Below, piece after piece: positions 16,291 through 53,408 of a stretch of 64,000 nucleotides of DNA. The DNA lies in NCBI RefSeq assembly GCF_024227715.1, contig NZ_CP100448.1, positions 2,129,655 to 2,193,654 of the forward strand, given 5' to 3'. The notes under the pieces are model-generated. The model worked only from the letters and a program-made list of their open reading frames with translations, was not told the origin of the DNA and made no database searches. This DNA is from Halomarina litorea (GTDB taxonomy: Archaea; Halobacteriota; Halobacteria; Halobacteriales; Haloarculaceae). The translations under genes and the position numbers were made by a program. Every line of letters begins with the position of its first letter. Position 1 is the first letter of the stretch.

Positions 16291-16314
16291 GTCCGTTGCC
16301 CCGGGGCTATGGGT

Positions 16315-17667
16315 ATGCAACAGGTGGACGTGGCCGTCGTCGGTGGCGGCCCTGCCGGGGCCTCGGCAGCACGGGCGGCGGCAGTGGAGGGTGCGGACGC
16401 GGTGGTCATCGAGAAGGGGGTGCCGCGGGCCGACCGCGAGGGACTCGGTCCCGACTCGACGGACGCCGCCGGCATCCTCGACTACTGGGTCGACCTGATG
16501 GACCTCGACGAACCCATCCCCGAGTGGGTGAAAGCCCGCGAACTCCACGCGACCGAGTTCATCGGCCCCAACGAGTCGTTCACCATGGAGTCGACGGGCA
16601 TCGAGTCCTCTTACCCCAACTTCGGGTTCACGATGCACCGCACGAAGTTCGACGATTGGCTCCGCGTGCGGGCGGAGGACGCCGGCGCGGAGTACCGCGT
16701 CGGGACGGCCGTCAGCGACGTGGAGACGGACTTCATCGACGGCTCGCACGTCCTCACGCTCCGCGACGGGTCCCAACTGGAGGCGGAGTACCTCGTCCTC
16801 GCGGACGGCCCCCAGCGCACGGTGACCAGCAAGGTGCTCGACCCCCTCCTCCCGGACGGCTCCGTCGAGAACCTCGCGTCCACGCGGGCCAACCACATCG
16901 CCTACCAGGAATTCCGGGAGTTCCCCGAGGAACTGTTCGAACCCGACCGGCTCAAGTTCTGGTGGGGCTATATGCCCGGCCACACCGCCTATCCATGGGT
17001 GTTCCCGAACGACGGCACCGTCGCCCGCGTCGGCCTCACGATGCCCATCGGTCTCGACCTCTCGACGGTCGAACACCGCGACGAGTACGCCCTCATCGAC
17101 CCTGAGGACGAGCGCATCCCGCAGGGGAAGGTGTACATCCGGCGCCTGCTGGACCGCCTCCACCCCGAGTACGACCTCGATGACTTCCCGCTCGTGACCG
17201 ACCGGGGGAAACAGGGCGGCACCGAGACGTACCCCATCTCCTCGACCCGACCCATCGACTCCCCGACGGCCGCCAACATCGCCGTCGTCGGCGGCGCGAT
17301 GGGCGCGACCAGCGCCTTCCACGAGGGCGGCGACCACGTCGCCGTCCGGACGGGGAAGATCGCCGGGCGACTGGCCGCCCTCGGTGCCCTCCGCGCGTAC
17401 AACGACGAGTGGAAACGCGCCATCGGCGAGGAGGTCCGACGGAACGTCGGCCTCTCGGAACTCGTCCGAGGGCACGGCCCGCGCGACTGGGACCGAACGT
17501 TCGCCACCGCCGACAAGATCCTCCGTCGCGGCACCGACTACGGTCTCGCGAGTTCGCTGATGGCGGGTCTCTCCGGGGCGCGCCTGTTCGGACGCTACCG
17601 CCGCATCAAGTTCGGCCTCCGGAGCGACCGCTACGTCCAGATCCGCGAGGACGCCTACGCGGTGTAG
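16315..17667 (+). CDS. Geranylgeranyl reductase family FAD-dependent oxidoreductase
   Basis: A 450-residue flavoprotein with the N-terminal dinucleotide motif DVAVVGGGPAGASAAR. The family signature around YPWVFPNDGTVARVGL (the YxWxFPx8GxG type) and the second FAD motif VGGAMGATSAFHEGGDHVAV follow. Archaeal members saturate the geranylgeranyl chains of archaeol lipids or menaquinone side chains. The protein has an extended C-terminal part compared with the minimal lipid reductase, so its substrate is not certain. Two ATGs, 16309 and 16315, are possible; I chose 16315 because the TATA element then lies at the leaderless distance and the glycine motif is close to the N-terminus. Confidence 0.88.
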   Translation: MQQVDVAVVGGGPAGASAARAAAVEGADAVVIEKGVPRADREGLGPDSTDAAGILDYWVDLMDLDEPIPEWVKARELHATEFIGPNESFTMESTGIESSYPNFGFTMHRTKFDDWLRVRAEDAGAEYRVGTAVSDVETDFIDGSHVLTLRDGSQLEAEYLVLADGPQRTVTSKVLDPLLPDGSVENLASTRANHIAYQEFREFPEELFEPDRLKFWWGYMPGHTAYPWVFPNDGTVARVGLTMPIGLDLSTVEHRDEYALIDPEDERIPQGKVYIRRLLDRLHPEYDLDDFPLVTDRGKQGGTETYPISSTRPIDSPTAANIAVVGGAMGATSAFHEGGDHVAVRTGKIAGRLAALGALRAYNDEWKRAIGEEVRRNVGLSELVRGHGPRDWDRTFATADKILRRGTDYGLASSLMAGLSGARLFGRYRRIKFGLRSDRYVQIREDAYAV

Positions 17668-18077
17668 GGACACGCTTAACCGGAGCAGTCGTCTACTCCG
17701 GGTGCGTACCACAAGTCCCCGCCCCGAGTAGACCCGACAGGGTGCAATGAGGGTGCGGCGAACCCTGGTGCGCGACAGTTCGAGGCGACGGTGCCTCCGC
17801 CTGGCCGGCGTAACCGGCGCGGTACTTCGAGGTCCCGACGGACCTCGCGCTTCGGCGGCTTGCGCCATCACCAGAAATCGAAGATGTCTGGTTGGCTCGA
17901 GAGACGCTCCGCGTCTTTCGGCCGCCTCAGCATCCGGTCGCGCGTAGCGCGACCCGCCCGGCACGAGGGTTTCCCGACCGACGCGGCACGCCGCCACGGG
18001 ATGAGGTCGGACGTTAGTGTTCCGGGCGACACTCACGCTTCGACAGCGACGGCGTCGGGGTCTTCGGACCGGCGACT
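17668..18077. other. Gene-free block with dense perfect hairpins, candidate structured RNA
   Basis: This 410-bp block has no convincing ORF. It contains GCCGG/CCGGC (17804-17818), GAGGTCC-CGAC-GGACCTC (17829-17846), AGACGC-TCC-GCGTCT (17902-17916) and GGTCGCGC-GTA-GCGCGACC (17936-17954), all perfect stems with short loops inside 150 bp. Near its left edge a longer-range pairing CTACTC...GAGTAG (17693-17698 with 17726-17731) is seen. A TTAA element at about 17676 could serve as a promoter. The block could be a non-coding RNA or the relic of a mobile element; I cannot match it to RNase P, SRP or another named RNA. Confidence 0.5.
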
Positions 18078-18662
18078 TCACTCACGGGGTTCCCGCCGGA
18101 GGTCGAACCGCTCCCGCGAGTACCGGTCGGAGCCGTCCTCGACGAGACAGTAGCCGTAGGCGTGGGCTTCGTCGCTCGGGTAGACGTGCAGCGACCGACT
18201 CCTGACGGGACTGTAGACGGCGTGGACGCCGTTGACCCGCGGGTCCACGACGGCGGCGTCGCCGGGGCGGGCCACCGTCGTCCCGAGGGGCGTCAGTTCG
18301 TACAGACCGTCGCTCACCGGGTCGGCCCGCATGTCGACGACTGCGAGCAGGCCCTCCACCAGCACCTCGAAGCACGGACGGCCGTGGTGTTCGTGGGGGA
18401 GCAACGAGAACCCCGGCGGCCACTCCATGAACCGGACGACGTGTCGCCCCGGGTCGCCGACGACCCTTCGACGGGTGTACGACCCCGGCGGCGCGGGGTC
18501 GGTGGCGACGCCGTCGAAGAACGCCGGGTCCCGAATCGCCGCCTGCAGGAGGGCCGGACCCCGGCCGACGAAGGCGTCGTCGCCCTCCTCGAGGAGGCAC
18601 CCCAGTCGCTCGTAGCACTCACGGACGACCGGGTTCGCGTCGACGTACGCCTCGGAACTCAT
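18078..18662 (-). CDS. Cupin protein, cysteine-dioxygenase-like
   Basis: A 194-residue single-cupin protein. Cupin motif 1 is PHEHHGRPCFEVLVEGLLA, with clustered histidines and a glutamate for Fe(II); motif 2 is in RVNGVHAVYS. The N-terminal helical region (CYERLGCLLEEG...) and C-terminal SRSLHVYPSDEAHAYGYC resemble the cysteine dioxygenase family, which oxidises thiols to sulfinates. The substrate (cysteine, mercaptopropionate or another thiol) is not determined. Its start is ATG 18662; the 156 bp between it and the upstream ABM-type gene hold no recognisable gene. Confidence 0.75.
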   Translation of the reverse strand: MSSEAYVDANPVVRECYERLGCLLEEGDDAFVGRGPALLQAAIRDPAFFDGVATDPAPPGSYTRRRVVGDPGRHVVRFMEWPPGFSLLPHEHHGRPCFEVLVEGLLAVVDMRADPVSDGLYELTPLGTTVARPGDAAVVDPRVNGVHAVYSPVRSRSLHVYPSDEAHAYGYCLVEDGSDRYSRERFDLRREPRE

Positions 18663-33167: not shown

Positions 33168-33562
33168 CGCTCGTCGTCGTCCCGGTCCGGTACCCGCTGT
33201 CGGAGCACTCGAAGGAGACGCTCAGCGAGGGGTGGCGCATCGCCCAGGAGCGCGACGCGGAACTCACCGTCCTCCACGTCAACCTCTATCAGAACAACGA
33301 ACACGTCACCCGGAGCGAACTGAAGCGCGCCGCCGAGGCGGTCATCGGCCGCCAGTCGCACGCCCGCTATGTCGTCCGGTCGGGCTTTCTCGTCGAGGAG
33401 TCCATCCTCGACGAGGTGGCCGCCGAGGACGCCGACGTGGTCGTCATCGGGCGCAAGCAGGCCTCGCGCTGGCGGCGGATGTTCCGCCGCCTGACCGACG
33501 ACCCCGACGTCGAGCGGTTCCTGAAGGAGTCCCTCGACTGCGAGGTCGTCACCGTCGGGTAG
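33164..33562 (+). CDS. Universal stress protein (UspA-type)
   Basis: A 132-residue UspA-fold protein: VVVPVRYPLSEHSKETL at the N-terminus, LTVLHVNLY, and VVVIGRKQASRW followed by RFLKESLDCEVVTVG. The ATP-binding GxxGxxxxGS(S/T) stretch of classic Usps is not obvious: GRKQASRWRRMFR occupies its place, so it may not bind ATP. Its ATG at 33164 overlaps the phosphatase TGA, indicating coupled translation. A start further upstream in the same frame would lie inside the phosphatase. Confidence 0.83.
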   Translation: MTLVVVPVRYPLSEHSKETLSEGWRIAQERDAELTVLHVNLYQNNEHVTRSELKRAAEAVIGRQSHARYVVRSGFLVEESILDEVAAEDADVVVIGRKQASRWRRMFRRLTDDPDVERFLKESLDCEVVTVG

Positions 33563-45594: not shown

Positions 45595-47877
45595 TCAGAA
45601 CAGGCCGCGGAGCGACGCGGCGAGGTCGGCGAAGAAGTGCTCGATGCCGCCCGTGTCCGCCGTCGGGTCGGTGCCGATGTCGTCCTCGTGGGCGTCGTCG
45701 TACCCGTCGCCGTCGGTGTCAGTCACGGCGAGGTCCGTGTCGAGGCCGTCCTCGATGCCGTCCGGGAGGCCGTCGCCGTCCGTGTCCACGCGCAGTGGGT
45801 CGCTCCCCCGCGTGGTCTCGTTACCGTCCGAGAGGCCGTCACCGTCCGTGTCGTCCGCCAGCGGGTCCGTCGGACCGTCGCGCTCGGTACCGTCGTCGAG
45901 GCCGTCGCCGTCCGTGTCCGTCTCCGTCGGGTCAGTGCCGACGTCCACCTCGCGGCCGTCGTCGAGGCCGTCGCCGTCCGTGTCCACGCGCAGTGGGTCG
46001 CTCCCGATGTCGACCTCCTCGCCGTCGGGCAGGCCGTCGCCGTCCGTGTCCGCGACGACGGGGTCCGTCCCGCGGTCGAGTTCCGCTCCGTCGTCCAGAC
46101 CGTCACCGTCCGTGTCCGCGCGGGTCGTACTGGTCGGGCCGGCGGACTCCGCGGCGTCGTCGAGGCCGTCGTCGTCCGTGTCCGCCGCGGTCGGGTCGGT
46201 GCCGACGTCCGCCTCGAACGCGTCGTCCAGACCGTCGCCGTCCGTGTCGGTCTTCCTTGGGTTGCTCCCCCGGTCGACCTCGTCGCCGTCCGGGAGGCCG
46301 TCACCGTCCGTGTCCGGCGTGAGCGGGTCCAGTTCCATCCGGACTTCGCTCCCGTCGTTCAGCCCGTCGCCGTCCGTATCGTTCGAGGTGGGGTCGGTCC
46401 CGCGGTCGTACTCGTCGCGGTCGGTGAGCGTGTCGTCGTCCGTGTCGCCGACGAGCGGGTCGCTCCCGATCTCGACCTCGGTGCCGTCGCTCAGGTCGTC
46501 GCCGTCCGTGTCGGGCGTCAGTGCGTCGGTCCCGAGGGCGCGCTCCTCGGTGTCGGGGAGGCCGTCGCTGTCGCTGTCCGCGACGACGGTCGAGGTGAAC
46601 AGCGAGCGGTCGTCGGGGACGGGCGGGGCGTCGCTCCCGTCGACGTACCGGTCCAGCCACGGGCCGAAGGAGTCCCCGCCCACGTCGACGACGATGCCGC
46701 GGAAGGCGTCGTAGGTGAGCACCTCGTCGTGGGTGTTCATCCGGTAGAAGACGTCCTGGAAGGAGGCCTCGCCCCCGGTCTCCTCGCGGAGGCGGGCGTC
46801 GAGCGCCGCGACGACGCGACGACCCTTGGTGTACTTCGTGTGCCAGTCCGCCCACGTGTCCGGGTCGGTGAGCGTCGCGCCCGCGTCCCGGTCGGTCGTC
46901 ACGCGTCGGTGGAACTCCGCGTACGAGATGTCACCGTTGTGGAGGCCGATGAGGTACTCGTAGTAGTCGGCGCTCCCCTCGACGACCCAGCCCATCTCGC
47001 CGGTGTGGGCGAACGCCTGGCGCGTGTGGACGTACTCGTGGACGGTGACCAGTTTCCAGACGCCGGCCTCGACGGTGACGTCGTGTTCGCCGCCGGTCGG
47101 GTTCCCGCTCGCCCAGCCCGCGTACCGGGGGATGGAGGGGACGTAGAAGAGGTTCACCCGGTCGTCGCGGGCTCCGACGGCCAGCCCCTCGTTGGCGGCG
47201 TGCAGGACGTCGAACAGTTCGTCGGTCCCGTGTCGCATACCGGCCTCGTCCGAGACGACGACGCGGAACTCCTGGTCGGTCGACCGGTCGCTCGTCTCGG
47301 TGGTCTCCCCGAGCAGTGCCATCGTCGACCCGACGGTCCCGGACTGGTTCGGGCCGAGCGCTACCTGTGCGTCGTAGTCGGGGGCGCTCCCCCAGTAAGA
47401 CCAGCTGAGGTAGCCGCTGACGTCCCAGCGGTCGACGAGCATCCAGTCGGGGCCGGAGGGGACGTCCGGGTCGCTCCCCAGGTCGACGACGTACGTGATG
47501 GACGACGGCGACCCGCCGGACCACTCGTAGGTCCCCTCGCCCGTGCGCCCGAACCCGTCGGTCGACTCGACCCGGACGCCGTCCGGGAGGTCCGCGGTCA
47601 GGCTGGCGAGGTTCGACGGGGTCCGGACGACCATGCGGACGCGGACCGCCCCGCCGTCGACCCGCGTGACCTCGTACCGGGCCGCGATTGTCCCGCCGCT
47701 CGTCCCGACAGGGGCGAGCGAGGCCGTCTCTGGCGCGGCCGTGCTGAAGCCACTAGCTGTCGACGCGTTCGAGAGCGGGGAGGCCGCCGGGGCAGCGCCG
47801 GACGCCGCCACCGGGACGGCCGCCCCGCTGGTCACGAGGAGGAGTACGAGGAGATACGTGGCCGCCGAACGAATCAT
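45595..47877 (-). CDS. Secreted gluzincin-type metallopeptidase with 14 calcium-binding repeats
   Basis: A 760-residue protein with a signal peptide (residues 1-27, [18 protein letters not shown]..., cleavage near VPVAASG). A beta-rich domain (about 50-200) and a catalytic domain with HEYVH at about 278-282 and [12 protein letters not shown] follow; the HExxH and downstream Glu (15 residues after the second His) make a peptidase-MA/gluzincin-like zinc site. The C-terminal half, from about residue 432, is 14 tandem repeats of about 22 residues with DTDGDGLxDGxE consensus, thrombospondin type-3-like, each of which can bind Ca2+. It should be exported across the membrane and could act on extracellular proteins or the surface layer. 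No sortase or PGF-CTERM motif is seen at the C-terminus. Confidence 0.87.
45655..46581 (-). repeat. 14 tandem 66-bp coding repeats (thrombospondin type-3 calcium motif)
   Basis: Each unit encodes about 22 residues with a core DTDGDGLxDGxE, followed by a turn such as VDRGSDP. Units are near-identical in the core and vary in the linker. The consensus is the calcium-binding EF-hand-like loop of TSP type-3 repeats, in which the Asp residues coordinate Ca2+. At the DNA level the core GTCGCCGTCCGTGTC repeats at 66-bp intervals and could recombine to change repeat number. I counted 14 units in the translation. Confidence 0.85.
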
Positions 47878-51140: not shown

Positions 51141-53408
51141 CTATTGGAAGGTCCGACTGACCTGTTCGCGGTCCTCGGGGCTCTCGCCGCGGTTGAACCG
51201 TTCCTCGATTTCGGCGTAGCGCTGGCGGGTCTCCTCGGTGACGCTCGCCTGCACTTCGTCCAGCGCCTCCTCGAAGTGGTCCATCGTGATGCGGACGTTG
51301 CCGACGGTGCCCTCGATGTCGTCGTCGTCGACCGACCGGATGAACTCGCGGGTGGCGACGAGTGCCGCCTCGCGGCAGACGGCCTCGATGTCCGCGCCGA
51401 CGTAGCCCTCCGTTCGCCGCGCGAGCTGATCGAGGTCGATGCCGTCTGCGAGGGGTTTGTTGCGCGTGTGAACCTCGAAGATCTTCTTGCGCGCGTCCTC
51501 GTCGGGAACGGGCACGTGGACGTGCCGGTCGAGTCGCCCGGGGCGCAGGAGCGCCGAGTCGATGAGGTCCGGTCGGTTCGTCGCCGCGACGATGACCACG
51601 TCCTCCAACTCTTCGAGGCCGTCGAGTTCCGTCAGGAGTTGTGAGACGACGCGTTCGCCGACGCCCGAGTCGCTCATGTTGCGGCCGCGCTGGCCCGCGA
51701 TGGAGTCGATCTCGTCGAAGAACACCACCGTGGGGGCGTTCGCGCGGGCCTTCTCGAAGACGTCGCGGACGCCCTTCTCCGACTCGCCGACGAACTTGTT
51801 CAGCAGTTCGGGCCCTTTGATGGAGATGAAGTTCGAGTTCGCCTCGTTGGCCACCGCTTTGGCGAGCAGCGTCTTCCCCGTCCCCGGCGGGCCGTAGAGG
51901 AGGACGCCCTTCGCGGCCTCCATGTCCATGGCCTCGAAGACCTCGGGGTAGTCGAGCGGCCACTGGATGGTCTCGCGGAGGCGCTCTTTGGTGTCTCCGA
52001 GTCCGCCGACGTCCTCCCACGTCACGTCCGGGACCTCCACGAACACCTCGCGGAGCGCACTGGGCGTGATGCCCTTCAGCGCGTTGCGGAAGTCCTCCTC
52101 GGTGACCCGCAGCGAGTCGAGCACCTCGGCGTCGATCTCGTCCTGTTCGAGGTCGATCTCGGGGCGGATGCGCCGGAGCGCGTTCATCGCGCTCTCCTTG
52201 GCGAGCGACTCGAGGTCGGCCCCGACGAACCCGTGGGTGTTCTCGGCGTACATGTCGAGGTCCACGTCGTCGGTCAGGGGCATCCCGCGCGTGTGGACCT
52301 GCAGGACTTCCTTGCGGCCGTCCTTGTCGGGGACGCCGATCTCGATCTCGCGGTCGAAGCGCCCGCCGCGGCGCAGCGCCGGGTCGAGGGCGTCGAGGCG
52401 GTTGGTCGCGCCGATGACCGTGACCTGCCCGCGCTCTTCGAGGCCGTCCATCAGCGAGAGGAGCTGGGCGACGACGCGGCGTTCCACGTCACCGCTCGTC
52501 TCGCCGCGCTTGGGCGCGATGGAGTCGATCTCGTCGATGAAGACGATGGCGGGGGCGTTGTCGGCTGCCTCCTCGAAGATCTCGCGGAGCTGTTCTTCGG
52601 ACTCCCCGTAGTACTTCGACATGATCTCCGGCCCGGAGATGTCCGTGAAGTAGGCGTCTATCTCGTTGGCGACGGCCTTCGCCATCAGCGTCTTGCCGGT
52701 GCCGGGCGGGCCGTGGAGCAGGACGCCCTTCGGCGGTTCGATGCCCAGCTGGCGGAACAGCTCCGGGTGGCGCATCGGGAGTTCGATCATCTCCCGGACC
52801 TGCTCGAGTTCGTCGTCGAGGCCGCCGATGTCCTCGTAGGTGATGGAGGGGCCGCCCTCCGCACCGCCCACGGTCCGGCCCGCGGCGATCTGCTCGGCGG
52901 GCTTCTCGCTGACGTGAACCTCCGTCGTGTCGGTGACGACGACGGTCCCCTTGGGTTCGGTCTCCGCGACCTTCAGGGGGATGCGCTGGCCCGACATGCT
53001 CGACAGGGGGCCGAGGCCGAGCGAGAAGGGGACCGTCTGGCCCTTCGTGACGGCCTGCCCGCTGAGTTTGTCGCGGATGTGGCCGCCGATGTTGCCCCGG
53101 ATGCGCAGGCTCTGGGGGAGGGCGACGGTGACGCTCTTCGCGGGTTTCACGTCGGCCTTCTCGACTTCGACGCGGTCGTCGATGCCGACGCCGGCCTCCT
53201 GCCGGAGGCGGCCGTCGATGCGGATGACTTCCTCACCCTCGTCCTCCGGGTAGCCCGGCCAGACGCGCGCGACGGCACGTCCGTCGCCGCCGCTGATGAG
53301 GATGTAGTCACCGTTCTCCAGGTCGAGGTCGGCCATCGCGCCGCGCGCGATGGCGGCGAGGCCGCGGCCCGCGTCCTTCTGCTTGAGTGGTTTGACGGTG
53401 AGCTTCAT
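51141..53408 (-). CDS. Cdc48/VCP-type double AAA+ ATPase
   Basis: A 755-residue protein with the Cdc48 layout: N-domain (residues 1-190, with double-psi barrel [16 protein letters not shown]), AAA D1 with Walker [14 protein letters not shown] (about 237) and Walker [14 protein letters not shown], and AAA D2 with Walker [14 protein letters not shown] (about 509) and Walker [15 protein letters not shown] plus [17 protein letters not shown]. The pore-loop in D1 and D2 is conserved. It unfolds proteins and feeds the archaeal proteasome. Its start overlaps the upstream small gene stop (ATGA), so expression is coupled to that protein. Confidence 0.96.

Follow-up and report, generated by a model that had tools for sequence, protein, structure and literature searches.

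The window analysed here, a 64,000-nucleotide stretch of the Halomarina litorea genome (contig NZ_CP100448.1, positions 2,129,655 to 2,193,654 of the forward strand; position 1 is its first letter), contains a 410-bp gap at 17668-18077 bordered by a gene for an FAD-dependent oxidoreductase and by a 194-aa ORF (Table 1). No Pfam hit at E ≤ 0.001 was obtained for the 194-aa ORF, nor for two ORFs of 66 and 120 aa inside the gap, which is taken to be gene-free. The gap had been singled out for four perfect stems, given as 5, 7, 6 and 8 bp, that seemed more crowded than expected by chance. All four were present (17804-17818, 5 bp; 17828-17847, 8 bp; 17902-17916, 6 bp; 17936-17954, 8 bp), the stem given as 7 bp being in fact one of 8 bp. 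The crowding was also real: the segment 17800-17955 gave seven hairpin calls (at least 6 bp, loops of 3-8, nested calls of one stem included) against a mean of 0.53 in dinucleotide shuffles, none of 500 reaching seven. The RNA fold of the 410-bp block had a z-score of -3.3 on the plus strand and -4.7 on the minus strand; in neither case was it equalled by any of 100 shuffles. On the hairpin score, the gap was outranked by two further clusters in the window, at 33340-33540 and 53200-53400 (peaks near 33350 and 53220); both are within long open frames.

Table 1. Features in and around the 410-bp gap (window coordinates)
Feature	Position	Strand	Remarks
FAD-dependent oxidoreductase gene	16309-17667		Stop codon at the left edge of the gap
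CTTAA, putative promoter element	17675-17679	+	23-27 nt before HP1, at the TATA position
HP1, first H/ACA guide hairpin	17702-17777	+	Matches Hvo1; predicted target 23S U2610
Small spacer hairpin	17782-17797	+	5 bp
Spacer module 1	17799-17847	+	Alpha 17799-17823, linker 17824-17827, beta 17828-17847; follows the strict grammar
Spacer module 2, split by insert	17849-17954	+	Beta 17936-17954 abuts HP2
Insert, dispersed two-hairpin palindrome	17867-17923	+	57 nt, with a single copy of a 3-nt repeat (GCC) included
HP2, second H/ACA guide hairpin	17955-18031	+	Matches Hvo2; predicted targets 23S U1947 and U1945 (alternative pairing)
194-aa ORF	18078-18662	-	Its end marks the right edge of the gap

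A search of the genus with the 410-bp block gave matches in all eight genomes, the source genome included. A 77-nt block corresponding to HP2 was 97-99% identical in the seven other genomes, and a second conserved block, corresponding to HP1, was more variable. The conserved part of the gap thus consists of these two blocks and not of the four stems first noticed, which form the spacer between the conserved hairpins and are not functional guide hairpins. In the family, the segment 17920-18060 found matches in 91 of 96 genomes and in all 22 genera, one of the matches (G088) being just 21 nt long. The 90 family loci carried onward (the window and L075-L163) amount to 89 distinct ones, since L114 and L163 (G030, G085) come from the same contig. 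An HMM for HP1, built from 68 of the 90 family loci, placed HP1 ahead of HP2 in 89 of them; at the remaining locus the contig runs out after 42 nt. The profile upstream of HP1 is promoter-like in the family: among 89 loci, position -24 is always A or T, -25 is T in 67, and -8 is one of these two bases in 81. When four TATA-like words were looked for literally, however, only 25 of the 89 loci had a hit.

In the window, both HP1 and HP2 fold as a lower stem, an internal pocket and an upper stem, and each ends in ACA directly 3′ of the lower stem. The box is mostly ACA or ATA in relatives, often following one extra base in the case of HP2. Alignments drawn from the family set (34 loci for HP1, 29 for HP2) showed an invariant UGA in the upper stem of HP1; in that of HP2, UG was invariant and the A present in at least 90% of the rows, with a GA on the opposite side read by eye. 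The guide elements GAACCC of HP1 and GAGGGTT and CGTTAGTGT of HP2 were invariant in the same rows, and three loci (L100, L106, L125) carry GATCCC in place of GAACCC. Pairing in HP2 was examined in 52 of 86 aligned rows, mostly picked for the stem abutting HP2 described below and with some gaps misplaced by MAFFT: 99.7% of the cells of the lower stem were paired, with both-sided changes at four of its seven pairs, and 91.0% of those of the upper stem, with such changes at three of six. The compensatory changes that had been proposed as a check were therefore seen in the HP2 helices, and they recur in the stems of the spacer modules of relatives.

This arrangement matches an RNA described earlier. 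Two haloarchaeal H/ACA hairpins ‘separated by a long spacer’ were predicted by Grosjean et al. in 2008 (PMC2584109), with pseudouridine 2621 as the target of HP1 and 1956 and 1958 as those of HP2. Their folds were refined as Hvo1 and Hvo2 in PMC4652768, which lists H. volcanii among the organisms with full experimental validation. The window has the same hairpin order, three 23S rRNA targets at one offset and the long spacer: U2610, U1947 and U1945 of the organism's own 23S rRNA are the published 2621, 1958 and 1956 minus 11. The suggestion of a new non-coding RNA is therefore supported as regards a structured RNA, given two conserved blocks with compensatory changes, and not as regards its novelty.

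The available text of PMC7991803 gives 14-16 nt from the pocket to ACA in archaeal H/ACA RNAs. With this ruler, and with pocket ranges that were set after the hairpins and the published sites were known, HP1 had a single candidate among the 527 U residues of the own 23S rRNA, U2610, and HP2 had 17, of which U1947 came first, one point ahead of U2225. The pocket-ACA distance is 14 nt for both U2610 and U1947. U1945 was absent from the HP2 candidates under the strict ruler filter; it would require UAAC to pair with GUUA instead. The sequences permit this alternative, in which the pocket is 16 nt from ACA, as read from the sequence. The 5′ guide of HP1 pairs with its target over 3 bp only. In an unconstrained guide-target scan of the 23S rRNA, other sites scored first, and U2610 was not among the sites listed. 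The genome encodes Cbf5 (265 bits) and L7Ae (179 bits), both above their cut-offs. Rfam gave no match for the 410-bp block at the gathering score, nor at E ≤ 1.

The position, the conservation, the pairing, the ACA ruler, the guide complementarity and the presence of genes for Cbf5 and L7Ae are the computed grounds for a guide gene, from which we infer transcription, RNP assembly and modification. The block is very probably a double H/ACA guide RNA gene, HP1 and HP2, with a hairpin-array spacer between them. The guide RNA is a further member of the described H/ACA RNA, which we take to be sR-h45, and its core is ordinary. Transcription would probably proceed rightwards from its own promoter, just 3′ of the oxidoreductase gene; HP1 and HP2 would each bind L7Ae and Cbf5, HP1 presenting U2610 and HP2 presenting U1947/U1945 of the 23S rRNA for pseudouridylation. 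Three pseudouridines, all in functional regions of the 23S rRNA, are thus probably owed to a gene that has no Rfam match. The two options offered originally, an unrelated new structured RNA or the remnant of an IS element, would fit the lack of an Rfam match and the dispersed palindrome found within the block (see below), but the guide complementarity, the ACA ruler, the UGA of a putative K-turn or K-loop in the upper stem, the conservation and the 2008 description all fit an H/ACA RNA, leaving either option very improbable. Further, over its length the block is single-copy in its own genome, the next match being 33 bp long, so that neither an IS-element end nor an IS remnant is supported.

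An exact-pattern search was also made in a genome collection, and HP1 was found in 113 of the 118 loci listed. L211, one of the five listed loci without HP1, comes from a bacterial MAG and is probably a chance match. A single scaffold of Haloquadratum walsbyi J07HQW1 matches the HP2 pattern in two stretches (L214 and L216), representing either a duplicated guide gene or overlapping stretches. The R2 search across the phylum gave matches in 60 of 196 genomes, many of them weak. Inspection of 15 such loci led to HP1 being called in six: the HMM detected it in L346 and L356, and it was recognised by eye in L348, L349, L354 and L357. All six are outside the haloarchaea proper or basal, and HP1 and HP2 lie 0-7 nt apart in them, which suggests that a hairpin array between the two is a derived state.

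In the family, the length of the HP1-HP2 spacer ranged from 0 to 261 nt (89 loci); in seven loci, counting L114 and L163 from the same contig, it was just 0-2 nt. A perfect stem of 7-9 bp ending between -2 and +3 nt from the start of HP2 was present in 60 of the 90 family loci and in 1.3% of 1800 shuffles, the background rate of such a stem at other positions being 0.75%. Where the spacer was 30 nt or longer, 59 of 75 loci had such a stem at HP2; none of the 14 loci with a shorter spacer did. With the requirement lowered to at least 5 bp, a stem at HP2 was present in 99 of the 118 exact-pattern loci listed, compared with about 10% of shuffles. One reading of the precise position is that the spacer hairpins of this same H/ACA gene are processing signals, with a cut at the junction of the last hairpin and HP2 that would yield two one-hairpin guide RNAs. 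In many loci the last stem does end at the first base of HP2 (offset 0 or -1), and most archaeal H/ACA sRNAs are of the one-hairpin type according to the available text of PMC7991803. However, the loci with 0-2 nt between the hairpins require no such signal, and we consider this reading unlikely.

Folding of the spacers revealed a repeated unit of about 50 nt, the module, made up of an alpha hairpin, a 4-nt linker and a beta hairpin of 8-9 bp. The alpha hairpin has 9 bp, arranged as 3+6 or 4+5 around a 2x2 internal loop that is usually TC/TC. Applied to the 74 loci whose spacer is 40 nt or longer, a strict grammar of this layout recognized 64 modules in 44 of them, compared with 1.5% of 1480 shuffled spacers, and the distance between the starts of neighbouring modules was 49-53 nt in 19 of 20 cases. 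Seventeen modules picked for perfect geometry were used for an alignment and a covariance model, R1; both-sided changes were present at 13 of 17 pairs, a count biased by that choice. In the 90 family loci, R1 gave 110 matches, 106 sense and four antisense, all in the spacer and none outside it. By this measure, 60 of the 90 loci hold one to five modules, one of which ends at HP2 in 57. Twelve spacers of at least 48 nt were without a module, counting L129 and L155, which have antisense matches.

R1 was also applied to 78 further listed loci (576,902 bases). All 12 matches, in nine loci, were sense and in the HP1-HP2 spacer, and seven of them ended exactly at HP2. The module-bearing loci include those of Halobacterium salinarum, Halobacterium bonnevillei, Haladaptatus halobius and a Halococcaceae MAG; the 78 were hand-picked as non-family among the 118 listed, for 80 of which names were available, so some may belong to the family. 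A module search of 16 chosen whole genomes gave matches in 14; at E ≤ 0.01, with E-values that are rough, 32 fell within the spacer, while 15, all weaker, lay elsewhere. In the source genome, only the spacer matched below an E-value of 0.01. Module-like hairpin pairs (alpha, 4-6 nt, beta) were seen far from the H/ACA locus in L307, L310, L311 and L361-L365 and might be dispersed relatives. Another hairpin, resembling GTCCGnn...AAAG...CGGAC, recurs in the spacers of Haloferax and Halobellus and, at some loci of the family, close to HP1; it follows HP1 in L077, L081 and L088 and precedes HP2 in L172, L206 and L239, and it may be an older spacer hairpin.

The spacer is thus a modular hairpin array, often tandem in related haloarchaea, whose last hairpin usually abuts HP2. 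What the available text of PMC2584109 calls only ‘long’ is here resolved into two-hairpin modules, with zero to five copies across the family and a palindrome inserted in the window; the stems show paired substitutions and the lengths are fixed. No description of the array was found in the literature searched, although the spacer may be shown in Blaby 2011 or in the supplementary figures to PMC2584109, both outside that search. As homologues of HP1 and HP2, the part of PMC2584109 available names stems II and III of Pf7 / Pab40 (Thermococcales) and Afu-4 (Archaeoglobus), with adjacent hairpins. Going by that text, and for Pf7 by description only, these RNAs are without the module array. The natural series of zero to five modules, mostly sense and at least one inverted, bears on why haloarchaea separate guide hairpins that other archaea keep adjacent.

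In the window, module 1 is the weaker of the two modules and had no R1 match at E ≤ 0.01. Module 2 was scored by R1 at 55.7 bits across the insert (L001:1682-1787, equivalent to window 17849-17954), and its flanks joined without the insert make a 49-nt module, the commonest geometry. The insert follows the pattern TCACCAGA...TCTGGTTNGC plus a second hairpin; its ends are constant, and its stems vary between copies and stay paired. Six copies, that of the window included, are present in the source genome, and 17 (L366-L382) in five of the eight genomes of the genus, with none for a reversed-pattern control. An end tag reads CGTC in eight of the 17 copies and CATC in nine; neither GTAG nor CGTC thus tags one end uniformly across the 17. 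In one frame or another, all 17 copies lie in stretches of 137 or more codons free of stops, a weak hint that they are in genes, because the DNA is GC-rich and the window copy scores 572 yet lies outside genes.

Short palindromic DNA of this general kind is known from other systems. REPs associated with RAYTs are recognised as single strands and can sit inside genes (PMC3733652), and the PATEs or IS605-type ends of Haloquadratum include a 52-bp element of fused ends only (PMC3119063). The spacer modules are similar in being short palindromic DNA and differ in being tandem and concentrated in one locus. The dispersed copies with constant ends are a feature that REP, PATE and IS605-end palindromes share with the insert.

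The modules carry a marked strand signature. Their alpha tetraloops (49 modules) were TNNC in 37, GNNA in none and other in 12; counting the 4-nt loops of all spacer hairpins, 57 were TNNC, seven GNNA and 24 other. The internal loops were TC/TC in 39 of 61 modules. Read on the antisense strand, these loops and internal loops become GNNA loops and tandem G-A mismatches, which stabilise both RNA and DNA hairpins. The beta triloops have the opposite polarity (sense GNA in 12, TNC in five). In L155 and L129, R1 matched in antisense and the array is inverted relative to HP1/HP2; in L155 the loop motifs turn along with the array. RNA energies favoured the antisense strand in 47 of 69 spacers, a group to which the window spacer does not belong. 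The antisense signature and the inversion in L155 suggest that the module owns its polarity, and a DNA-level origin is plausible; both points count against a purely sense-RNA role.

The module may have arrived as a palindromic DNA element and then been multiplied by recombination, the array being kept because locally folding hairpins would hold the guide hairpins apart without interfering. A selected spacer of palindromic-DNA origin is the most likely nature of the array, at about even odds with a passive one. In the latter case, the H/ACA gene would be the same and the array no more than a site where mobile palindromic DNA resembling REPs or IS605 ends has landed, which would fold as bottom-strand single-stranded DNA and have no RNA role; the two explanations differ in the role of the array alone. 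A passive array, which we hold to be a serious possibility if not a probable one, would account for TNNC and TC/TC loops that read GNNA and G-A on the antisense strand, for the inversion in L155, for the 15 weaker matches elsewhere in the 16 genomes against the 32 in the spacer, for the other palindrome inserted in the module of the window and for the seven loci with a 0-2 nt spacer. It sits less well with matches that are all in one locus (110 of 110 in the family, 12 of 12 in the further listed loci) and with beta triloops of reversed polarity. Further, a hairpin placed precisely at HP2 in most haloarchaeal loci, as in the 99 of 118 listed, is not easily accounted for unless the RNA gene is under selection.

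If the array is a selected spacer, the module could tentatively be seen as a tandem structural repeat of a new, strand-polar class: a hairpin pair of about 50 nt with fixed geometry, in which the internal loop reads GA/GA on one strand and the GNNA loop lies on that same strand. It would have been captured early in haloarchaeal evolution in an rRNA-modification RNA gene, reached up to five copies and now serve as a selected spacer or cap for HP2. The array also bears on whether palindromic DNA can enter an RNA gene. Elsewhere in the window, 13 copies of a sequence recur every 66 nt at 45620-46648; leaving aside the reference copy, they are 60-75% alike, and they are probably a protein repeat.
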